This document shows positions 53,892 through 55,515 of a stretch of DNA of 64,000 nucleotides, in pieces. Within the stretch, counting starts at the first letter, position 1; the number at the start of each line of letters is the position of its first letter. Location: the NCBI RefSeq assembly GCF_900636575.1, contig NZ_LR134293.1, positions 927,001 to 991,000 on the forward strand, written 5' to 3'. The stretch is from Streptococcus canis (GTDB taxonomy: Bacteria > Bacillota > Bacilli > Lactobacillales > Streptococcaceae). The position numbers were made by a program, and so were the translations under genes. Below the pieces are notes generated by a model that ran no database searches, was not told where the DNA came from, and worked only from the letters and a program-made list of their open reading frames with translations.

Positions 53892-54128
53892 ATGATTTGG
53901 TCTTTAATAGTAGGTGCTATCATCGGCATGATTGCAGGTAAAATCACCGAAAAAGGGCAGTCTATGGGCTGTTTTACTAATAGTGTTGCCGGCCTTATTG
54001 GGTCGGCCGTTGGTCAAAGGCTTTTTGGGGATTGGGGCATTCAGTTGGCAGGCATGGCTATTTTCCCCTCCATCATGGGAGCAGCCATTGTGATTGTTCT
54101 TGCGTCAGCTATTTTTGGTAACAAATGA
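53892..54128 (+). CDS. GlsB/YeaQ/YmgE family small membrane protein
   Basis: 78 residues from MIWSLIVGAIIGMIAGKI with GAGGTAGTGAG upstream; longer in-frame starts reach back into the EamA gene. Three hydrophobic segments with Gly-rich turns (GKITEKG, GLIGSAVGQ) match the transglycosylase-associated / stress-linked GlsB family. Function unknown. It begins 35 bp after the EamA stop, so probably co-transcribed. Confidence 0.85.
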   Translation: MIWSLIVGAIIGMIAGKITEKGQSMGCFTNSVAGLIGSAVGQRLFGDWGIQLAGMAIFPSIMGAAIVIVLASAIFGNK

Positions 54129-54194
54129 TAAGACGAGCTCTAGTAGTGCTCAGATAAGAAAAAGGTCTGAGATAAAATGAGTTCTCAGCACAGA

Positions 54195-54232
54195 AAAAAT
54201 AGGGATTCACTTCTGGTGAGTCTCTATTTTTG
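54195..54232 (+). terminator. Terminator after GlsB-like gene
   Basis: AAAATAGGGATTCAC and GTGAGTCTCTATTTT form a long stem with two G-U or mismatched positions and a 5-nt loop, ending in T-rich sequence. Confidence 0.8.
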
Positions 54233-54301
54233 TCTGATTGCTCTTTTGGTTGCGTTTATTTTTAAGGTTCCTTCTACATCACAATTTTTTATAAAAAAGG
54301 C

Positions 54302-54324
54302 TTGACAATATATATATATATAAT
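54302..54324 (+). promoter_or_regulatory. Promoter-like sequence containing an AT-dinucleotide tract
   Basis: TTGACA (54302-54307) is followed by an uninterrupted AT/TA tract that runs into TATAAT (54319-54324). The spacer is only 11 bp, too short for normal use; three more TA units would make it 17. A TATAAA at 54349 could act instead in this strain. Confidence 0.4.
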
Positions 54325-54374
54325 TGTTTTCTAATTAAAAAATAATTATATAAAAGTGAGGTATAGTTAATTTA

Positions 54375-55103
54375 ATGAACCAATCAAAAGGGAAATTCAG
54401 AACATGGAAATCCAAAAAGCAATGGCTATTTGCGGGTGGAGTAGTGACGAGTGGCTTACTGCTCTCTGCACTGGTCTCAGCCCTTTTTTTAGGCTCAGGT
54501 GCTGGGCCTCGGCAAGTTAAAGATCCAGATAATCGCCAAGTAGCCTTGAGCGGAGATAATGGCGGTTCTCAACGTCCAGGTCTAAGCGGAGATAATGGCG
54601 GTTCTCAACGTCCAGGTCTAAGCGGAGATAACGGCGGCCGACTTCCAGGTCTAAGCGGAGATAACGGAGGCCGACTTCCAGGTCTAAGCGGAGATAACGG
54701 CGGTTCTCAACGTCCAGGTCTAAGCGGAGATAACGGAGGCCGACTTTCAGGTCTAAGCGGAGATAACGGCGGTTCTCAACGTCCAGGTCTAAGCGGAGAT
54801 AATGGAGGCCGACTTTCAGGTCTAAGCGGAGATAATGGAGGCCGACTTTCAGGTCTAAGCGGAGATAACGGAGGCCGACTTCCAGGTCTAAGCGGAGATA
54901 ACGGCGGTTCTCAACGTCCAGGTCTAAGCGGAGATAATGGAGGCCGACTTCTAGGTCTAAGCGGAGATAATGGCGGTTCTCAACGTCCAGGTCTAAGCGG
55001 AGATAATGGCGGCCGACTTCCAGGTCTAAGCGGAGATAACGGCGGCCGACTTCCAGGTCTAAGCGGAGATAACGGAGGCCGACTTTCAGGCGAAGAAGGG
55101 TGA
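54375..55103 (+). CDS. Membrane-anchored or secreted protein of GLSGDNGG repeats
   Basis: 242 residues. The N-terminus FRTWKSKKQWLFAGG followed by a hydrophobic helix (to about residue 40) resembles a KxYKxGKxW-type signal, though with Trp for Tyr and Lys for Gly. After a 15-residue spacer come sixteen tandem repeats (residues 58-239): six of 12 residues (LSGDNGGSQRPG) and ten of 11 residues (LSGDNGGRLPG, with Ser or Leu variants). The chain then ends EEG. Gly positions do not follow Gly-X-Y, so it is not collagen-like. The stop seems to come from a one-base frame change: in the next frame 18 more codons read ETIDLSGGGTVTIDFNFL. RBS GTGAGG, 13 nt away. No family recognised; cell-surface location is inferred. 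Confidence 0.75.
   Translation: MNQSKGKFRTWKSKKQWLFAGGVVTSGLLLSALVSALFLGSGAGPRQVKDPDNRQVALSGDNGGSQRPGLSGDNGGSQRPGLSGDNGGRLPGLSGDNGGRLPGLSGDNGGSQRPGLSGDNGGRLSGLSGDNGGSQRPGLSGDNGGRLSGLSGDNGGRLSGLSGDNGGRLPGLSGDNGGSQRPGLSGDNGGRLLGLSGDNGGSQRPGLSGDNGGRLPGLSGDNGGRLPGLSGDNGGRLSGEEG
54546..55091 (+). repeat. Sixteen tandem 33/36-bp repeats
   Basis: Units of 36 bp (GGTCTAAGCGGAGATAATGG core plus TTCTCAACGTCCA) and 33 bp (same core plus CCGACTTCCA-type end) alternate irregularly. Units are nearly identical, differing mostly at AAC/AAT and at one or two third positions. Only one of the three frames is open, since TAA occurs in the other two within each unit. Recombination can change the copy number without shifting frame. 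Confidence 0.95.
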
Positions 55104-55202
55104 AACCATAGATTTGTCTGGTGGAGGAACTGTTACTATAGACTTTAATTTTCTTTAAGCCTTACCCTATCTCTCTTTATTCAGATGCCAATGAGCAAGC
55201 AC

Positions 55203-55237
55203 AAAAAAGCTGGTCCTGAAAGGATACCAGCTTTTTT
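55203..55237 (+). terminator. Strong terminator after the repeat gene
   Basis: AAAAAAGCTGG and CCAGCTTTTTT pair perfectly over 11 bp around a 13-nt loop. Confidence 0.85.
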
Positions 55238-55340
55238 GGCAGCTTCAAACATCTTATCTTTTATTAGCTACCATTATATTATAAAGTCTCAACATTAAGA
55301 AATAGTGTCAATTGAATAACAACTCTTCTTTTTCTGGTAG

Positions 55341-55466
55341 ATACTGACAACTTTTGGTGGTCTTTTAGAGACAGTTCCGGTCATGGCTGCTAATCCGCAT
55401 TCATCGGCTGACTTTATTGCTTGTGCTGGGCAGATGCCAGCTCCTGTCCACAGCTTTAAGAATTAA
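55341..55466 (+). pseudogene. 3' remnant of a UPF0210 (PFL-like, DUF711) gene
   Basis: 41 codons with no start, opening right after a TAG and ending TAA. They read [13 protein letters not shown], then [25 protein letters not shown]. This matches the conserved end of UPF0210/DUF711 proteins, which close with FI-GG-(R/Q)IPAP(I/V)HSFKN. Nothing upstream belongs to the gene, so it is the stump of a deletion. The rest of 55238-55480 shows no gene. Confidence 0.65.
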
Positions 55467-55486
55467 TGGCTAGCACTTGTCTGTTT

Positions 55487-55515
55487 TTGCAAGTGTTTTC
55501 TTTAAATGCTATAAT
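55487..55515 (+). promoter_or_regulatory. Promoter of the phosphatase-vanY operon
   Basis: TTGCAA (55487-55492), a 17-bp spacer and TATAAT (55510-55515) with TG one base before it. Confidence 0.75.

Follow-up and report, generated by a model that had tools for sequence, protein, structure and literature searches.

A Streptococcus canis protein with a KxYKxGKxW-like head and an LSGDNGG-repeat tail that varies in length among relatives

A 64,000-nucleotide stretch of the Streptococcus canis genome, referred to here as the window, holds a gene whose product starts with a motif like the signal of serine-rich surface adhesins and continues as a long series of near-identical glycine-rich units. What kind of protein has such a head and such a tail, and does it belong with those adhesins? 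Positions below are those of the window, and the gene has the following parts.

54375..55103, + strand: open reading frame of a KxYKxGKxW-like LSGDNGG-repeat protein, 242 aa (translation, TIGR03715 match)
54375..54545, + strand: constant 57-aa head with FRTWKSKKQW and a hydrophobic helix at residues 14-40 (relatives, AlphaFold)
54546..55091, + strand: sixteen tandem LSGDNGG units of 33 or 36 bp (translation split, Tandem Repeats Finder, DNA pattern)

The frame starts with ATG, and from residue 58 its translation splits into exactly 16 units, every one starting with LSGDNGG. Unit starts span 54546 to 55059, and the last unit is followed by EEG and a TGA stop. Six units have 12 residues (36 bp each), all of them LSGDNGGSQRPG, and the other ten have 11 residues with endings RLPG (five), RLSG (four), or RLLG (one). 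The initial annotation had described sixteen near-identical 11/12-residue repeats that are not collagen-like; the count is exact, and the translated repeats have no Gly-X-Y periodicity. Scl1 and Scl2 also contain glycine-rich tandem repeats, but the window protein lacks their Gly-X-Y order and LPXTG, and no Scl model was listed against it at E up to 1.

On the DNA, Tandem Repeats Finder places the array at 54549-55090 as 15.9 copies of 33 bp (score 705), and a 204-bp super-unit scores 973. Unit 1 opens with TTGAGC and the remaining 15 with CTAAGC. Three nucleotide positions vary among the six 36-bp units, and four among nine of the ten 33-bp units, the final one (printed with EEG) being outside this count. 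The two unit lengths are each divisible by three, and the coding frame is open across all 16 units, while the other two frames have stops all along the array. Glycine accounts for 72 of the 242 residues (30%) and serine for 32 (13%), each unit having one Asp and one Arg. The protein contains neither LPXTG, its C-terminus being EEG, nor serine-rich repeats.

A degenerate DNA pattern for LSGDNGG has 16 matches in this genome, equal to the unit count (14 are listed with position, all inside the reading frame). It matches four of 284 Streptococcus genomes; elsewhere it occurs twice in G214 (one reads LRGDNGG) and once in G309, all within LSG-type genes, and once on the reverse strand in G179, which is taken as chance. 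The reversed control pattern has one match, in one genome of the 284. With 16 matches here and only four of 284 genomes matched, chance is therefore excluded for the array. The gene is real and was correctly spotted.

The signal motif of the head reads R-T-W-K-S-K-K-Q-W within FRTWKSKKQW, with Trp for Tyr and Lys for Gly as first read. Against NCBIfam TIGR03715 the head scores 21.8 bits (25.5 in the genome search), passing the cut-off of 18, but against Pfam PF19258 it scores 11.7 bits (E 0.27), failing the cut-off of 23.6. The original description of the head as KxYKxGKxW-like is thus upheld by one model and not by the other. An S. halichoeri relative passes PF19258 with 29.4 bits. In the genome, TIGR03715 gives four matches at E up to 1, and two of them, the gene and a paralogue, are over the cut-off. 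The window protein shares with KxYKxGKxW proteins (TIGR03715; PF19258) a basic N-terminal motif and a Gly-containing hydrophobic stretch, followed here by low-complexity repeats; it differs from them in its R-x-W-K-x-K-K-x-W variant, its score under the Pfam cut-off, its lack of LPXTG, and a genome with no accessory Sec match over the cut-off.

AlphaFold models one helix at residues 14-40, the only confidently modelled part (block pLDDT 74-90). The mean pLDDT is 47.3 with 176 of 242 residues below 50, which is weak evidence for disorder as the run used a single sequence. Solved structures gave no match at E up to 1. We read the model as a predicted N-terminal signal or anchor helix with a putatively disordered tail. 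By Kyte-Doolittle hydropathy, the best 19-mer starts at residue 22 (value 1.97), and no AxA motif occurs in the first 64 residues; hydropathy and the absent AxA do not decide between cleavage and anchoring. Cleavage-like sites are visible by eye in some relatives (S. phocae, the paralogue).

Another species carries a 371-aa relative at the same locus (genome G206) with neighbours of the same kind, glsB-like upstream and gpmB-like downstream past two more genes. Its N-terminus is identical to that of the window protein at 25 of 34 residues. Over 34 codons, 14 are the same, 11 differ silently, and 9 are changed, a pattern that points to amino-acid constraint on the head against this relative. 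Its units are related (GLSGNNQGR..LPGLNGEN).

Relatives were found in other ways as well. Protein searches with the single sequence gave none at E 0.001 among 7995 candidates scored, and with the head only none at 0.1 among 138 candidates. A profile of six relatives gave 49 matches at E 0.1 among 7993 candidates scored, and therefore the blank single-sequence searches do not equal absence. The whole protein matched this genome only in a search of 98 genomes, and a scan of genome contigs gave one locus, in S. phocae. Three tblastn matches (50-54% identity) were found in plasmids; the one examined is antisense to a YSIRK-type protein gene and was rejected as a low-complexity resemblance.

The same head occurs with much shorter tails. 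P0007 (83 aa; 7 member sequences, 11 contigs) has an identical 57-residue head with 2 units, and P0011 (93 aa; 1 contig of 2,056,205 bases) has the identical head with 3 units. Both end in GEEG as the window protein does, and judging from the identical head they would come from the window's species. S. equi relatives, 70-73% identical overall in the alignment, have 1 (P0014), 2 (P0010), 3 (P0012), and 5 (P0006) units; three of the four are named S. equi by source, and P0012 is without a name. The single-unit P0014 (69 aa) is present in 51 contigs, and a long tail thus seems dispensable. No 16-unit version is among the 49 profile matches. The tail in the window may be an unusually long allele, and an assembly error in its array is possible.

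In another pair of relatives, from two other species, LSG-type and LPGxSGE motifs number 43 and 44 in the 1201-aa G214 protein and 3 and 4 in the 268-aa G309 protein; the N-termini of the two proteins are identical at 211 of 235 residues (90%) and their last 39 residues are identical. RTX and Scl matches of the 1201-aa protein lie far under the cut-offs (Scl 76.9 of 325 bits) and were rejected as composition. Size variation, earlier supposed from the repeat identity, is thus borne out by 2, 3, and 16 units behind the same head and by this pair, and repeat counts among relatives are not identical (1, 2, 3, 5, and 16). The head is constant, and the tail changes its length readily.

We define the LSG/LPG-repeat family by an FR[TM]WKS[GK]K.W head with LSG-type and LPG-type units. 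The proteins of the window, G206, G214, G309, S. halichoeri, and S. equi have both; castoreus- and gallolyticus-labelled versions and that of G145 are ended by contig ends. Relatives from S. suis, S. halichoeri, and S. castoreus have a head of the same type, with LSG/LPG-type repeats in S. halichoeri, S. equi, and the castoreus fragment, and LPGAEGE-type repeats in S. suis. Their units differ from those of the window protein in sequence and length, and S. suis P0022 and P0030 have a GGTV-type end. The S. halichoeri protein has LSGSNGDRELPG units, and P0001 of this species ends in a C-terminal membrane helix, unlike the window protein. P0001, P0002, P0005, and P0008 (all but P0002 named S. halichoeri) vary in how many LSG[SN]NGDRELPG..ITWGPAA units they have; the C-terminal helix is common to P0001, P0002, and P0008, P0005 being partial.

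Similar heads also carry very different bodies, as read behind the matches of a profile built from eight heads, which matches 25 of 284 Streptococcus genomes at E 0.001. The signals FRMWKSGKQW and FRTWKSGKLW head two probable surface or secreted proteins, one of 1390 aa, whose Mac-1 domain scores 166.7 bits, and one of 186 aa, which matches Fibrinogen_BP at 405 bits and has an LPKTG-like C-terminus. Proteins of more than 1700 aa with similar heads at L169 and L170 look pullulanase-like by eye; no enzyme domain was given for L170, the one scanned. Genome G194 has five head-profile matches (stretches L097, L098, L163, L165, and L164), four of which read FRTWKSGKQWLY with differing bodies. The fifth has an internal stop, and a motif scan of its stretch gave no open copy.

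By which route could such a head be exported? According to the excerpted text of PMC6973325, the accessory Sec system serves serine-rich glycoproteins. In the excerpts of PMC6973325 and PMC3584209, these glycoproteins are serine-rich, glycosylated, LPXTG-anchored, and exported by SecA2/SecY2; the window protein resembles them in its signal motif and long low-complexity repeats, but serine-richness, LPXTG, and SecA2/SecY2 were not found for it. The genome has a single SecY match, with 204.4 bits against the SecY2 cut-off of 249.6, and a single SecA match, with 876.4 bits against the SecA2 cut-off of 930. Because bacteria require housekeeping SecY and SecA, the lone matches are read as the housekeeping copies.

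Among the 25 genomes with a head-profile match, SecY2 is over the cut-off in 9 (7 of 18 plus 2 of 7, the latter two being G041 and G057). Among the seven with an LSG-type protein (G000, G193, G206, G145, G214, G309, and G212, where those of G193 and G145 are contig-end fragments), it is over the cut-off in two, G214 and G212. The housekeeping-like SecY match of G206 is split into two pieces. As SecY2 does not pass the cut-off in most signal-bearing and most LSG-type genomes, we take the signal variant to be independent of accessory Sec.

We consider it likely that the gene encodes a Sec-exported and probably membrane-anchored surface protein with a disordered tail of variable length. The basic FRTWKSKKQW and the helix at residues 14-40 would serve as a Sec signal read by the housekeeping system, as no accessory Sec was found in the genome. 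Since there is no clear AxA cleavage site and no C-terminal anchor, the helix may remain in the membrane as an anchor. Outside the cell, the tandem units would form a flexible glycine-rich tail with no stable fold. Recombination or slippage between the near-identical 33/36-bp units could alter the tail length quickly, and strains would then differ in how far the tail projects. Such variation would most likely tune surface properties such as binding, shielding, or antibody recognition.

Alternatively, the head could be the working part, as a small membrane protein or peptide, with the repeats as an almost neutral tail that gains and loses units. The constant head and a tail of down to one unit in the 51 contigs of P0014 fit this explanation, which we nevertheless regard as unlikely, since LSG/LPG-type repeats recur behind diverged heads in several species, suggesting that the tail is used, and one relative keeps 43 LSG-type motifs in its tail.

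The 3′ side of the gene bears on another explanation, and two features lie there.

55093..55158, + strand: KKGETIDLSGGGTVTIDFNFL, a short open piece that overlaps the stop of the gene but is read in a different frame (own translation)
55199..55240, + strand: intrinsic terminator-like hairpin with a T run (folding)

The out-of-frame piece, which contains GETIDLSGGGTVTIDFNFL, is similar to the C-termini of S. suis P0022 and P0030; the local score of 35 is reached by 6 and 5 of 2000 shuffles, respectively. Against two S. halichoeri proteins and the S. phocae protein there is no resemblance (1373, 508, and 430 of 2000 shuffles). The likeness is either the trace of an old frame change by which the protein became shorter in this lineage or due to chance; in the first case, the protein may have lost a former end. 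The hairpin folds with −22.6 kcal/mol (z −5.33; 0 of 200 shuffles), and the consensus terminator scan gave 55472-55497 rather than this site. Between these two sites, 55344-55463 is a 40-codon remnant, 75% identical to residues 409-448 of a G206 protein, of what we take to be a UPF0210-type gene. In G206 and G194, the UPF0210-type gene and a gene of 93 or 88 aa are whole before gpmB; in five other neighbour stretches searched (L092-L096), the remnant's gene has no match.

A decaying gene, in which a 3′ frame change removed a conserved C-terminus and the array is now drifting, would account for the S. suis-like piece at the stop and accord with the state of a neighbouring gene, which G206 has in full and of which just a 40-codon remnant is left here. 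We give this explanation somewhat less weight than a neutral tail. The likeness is notable for two near-identical targets of the five tested, all four S. equi versions end without an S. suis-like tail, and the three representatives of the head (the window protein, P0007, and P0011) share the present end; moreover, the coding frame is kept open over 16 units with the other frames full of stops.

Sixteen near-identical units with regularly placed Arg could also suggest a precursor processed into multiple copies of a single short peptide that is secreted. This is improbable, as the units vary between species, single-unit tails exist, and the adjoining genes that were scanned or read (an EamA-type transporter, a small membrane protein, a phosphoglycerate-mutase-like protein, and cell-wall hydrolases) are unlike a peptide-processing set. 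As for an accessory-Sec serine-rich glycoprotein adhesin, the tie drawn at first from the motif and favored by the TIGR03715 match is largely refuted and very improbable, with no SecY2 or SecA2 over the cut-off in the genome, SecY2 in just two of seven genomes with an LSG-type protein, 30% Gly versus 13% Ser without serine-rich repeats or LPXTG, and similar signals heading unrelated proteins.

A search of 5.39 million papers for twelve unit and signal strings, LSGDNG, LSGDNGG, LSGNNG, LSGSNG, FRTWKSKK, and FRTWKSGK among them, found none. The earlier statement that no described family with this unit is known stands in that no characterised family covering the repeats was found, but relatives are already deposited in databases, mostly named after the signal motif alone. 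In the excerpted text of PMC8733411, S. suis YSIRK- and KxYKxGKxW-type proteins are listed with functions still unknown, and in that of PMC3584209, SpcB of L. rhamnosus is a docking protein with a KxYKxGKxW signal. The signal class is thus known, and the repeat family is distinct and undescribed in the literature searched. A constant head followed by anything from 1 to 16 or more units makes a clean natural case for the role of a KxYKxGKxW-type signal without accessory Sec, a question that naming by signal alone leaves open in databases. In pyogenic streptococci, a quickly changing surface repeat would also be a candidate both as an antigen and for typing.

Upstream of the gene, three features precede the start codon.

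54302..54323, + strand: TTGACA (54302-54307) followed by a 15-nt TA tract (54309-54323) (sequence)
54317..54352, no strand: 36-bp near-palindrome with 16 of 18 pairs, operator-like or hairpin (shuffles)
54358..54361, + strand: GAGG, candidate ribosome-binding site, 13 nt before ATG (sequence, spacing)

The consensus promoter scan did not score the TTGACA/TA site as a standard promoter. A TTGAC-like hexamer, or part of it, with a TA tract precedes 9 of the 14 family genes with printed leaders, the tracts being 8, 8, 8, 8, 10, 11, 15, 19, and 29 nt long. It is not present before the genes of S. phocae, G214, G309, and G145, nor before L165, a G194 gene with no Met nearby; by eye, S. phocae has a standard-looking promoter instead. 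Slippage promoters of similar arrangement occur in other bacteria, and by analogy the TA tract after the hexamer is possibly such a promoter.

When the 75-bp upstream stretch was dinucleotide-shuffled 1000 times, no shuffle reached the pairing of the palindrome. The paralogue, a 300-aa protein at G000:C1:1150668-1151570 (L036:1480-2382), has the same leader and a similar head, near-identical 67-aa repeats replacing LSGDNGG. In its copy of the palindrome, 15 of 18 pairs form, a value attained by 2 of 100 shuffles. A 30-base palindrome core with up to 3 mismatches has two sites, those of the gene and the paralogue, and none in the other genomes of the 284. In the last 57 bases before ATG, a single substitution and a single inserted base separate the two leaders, which are closer to each other than the coding heads are.

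The possibility that hairpins in the leader occlude the ribosome-binding site was tried on nine leaders and does not hold in general. The site's unpaired value is low in three of the nine, G193b (0.00), G193a (0.23), and G206 (0.26), and shuffled controls are as low in 1, 90, and 80 of 200, respectively, so that G193b alone departs from its controls; the window leader has 0.76. Folding from the tract end gives z of −3 or below in five of the nine and an unremarkable −1.00 in the window. The 57-nt stretch holding most of the palindrome does not stand out either, having z −1.78 with 11 of 200 shuffles as good. No Rfam family was over its gathering score in 54100-55300.

One may speculate, though we doubt it, that this is a surface family with two length dials, a TA tract of 8-29 nt for expression and an array of 1 to ~43 units for reach, with an accessory-Sec-free signal and, in this species, a palindrome that co-controls the gene and the paralogue.

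S. pyogenes entries P0043 and P0044 have a related head with a YxxGYxxG-type body. Near the paralogue lie genes for a 339-aa Mac-1 domain protein (L103:9924-10943; 150.3 bits) and for a protein of 752 aa that contains 76-aa repeats and has an LPATG end (L103:13262-15520).
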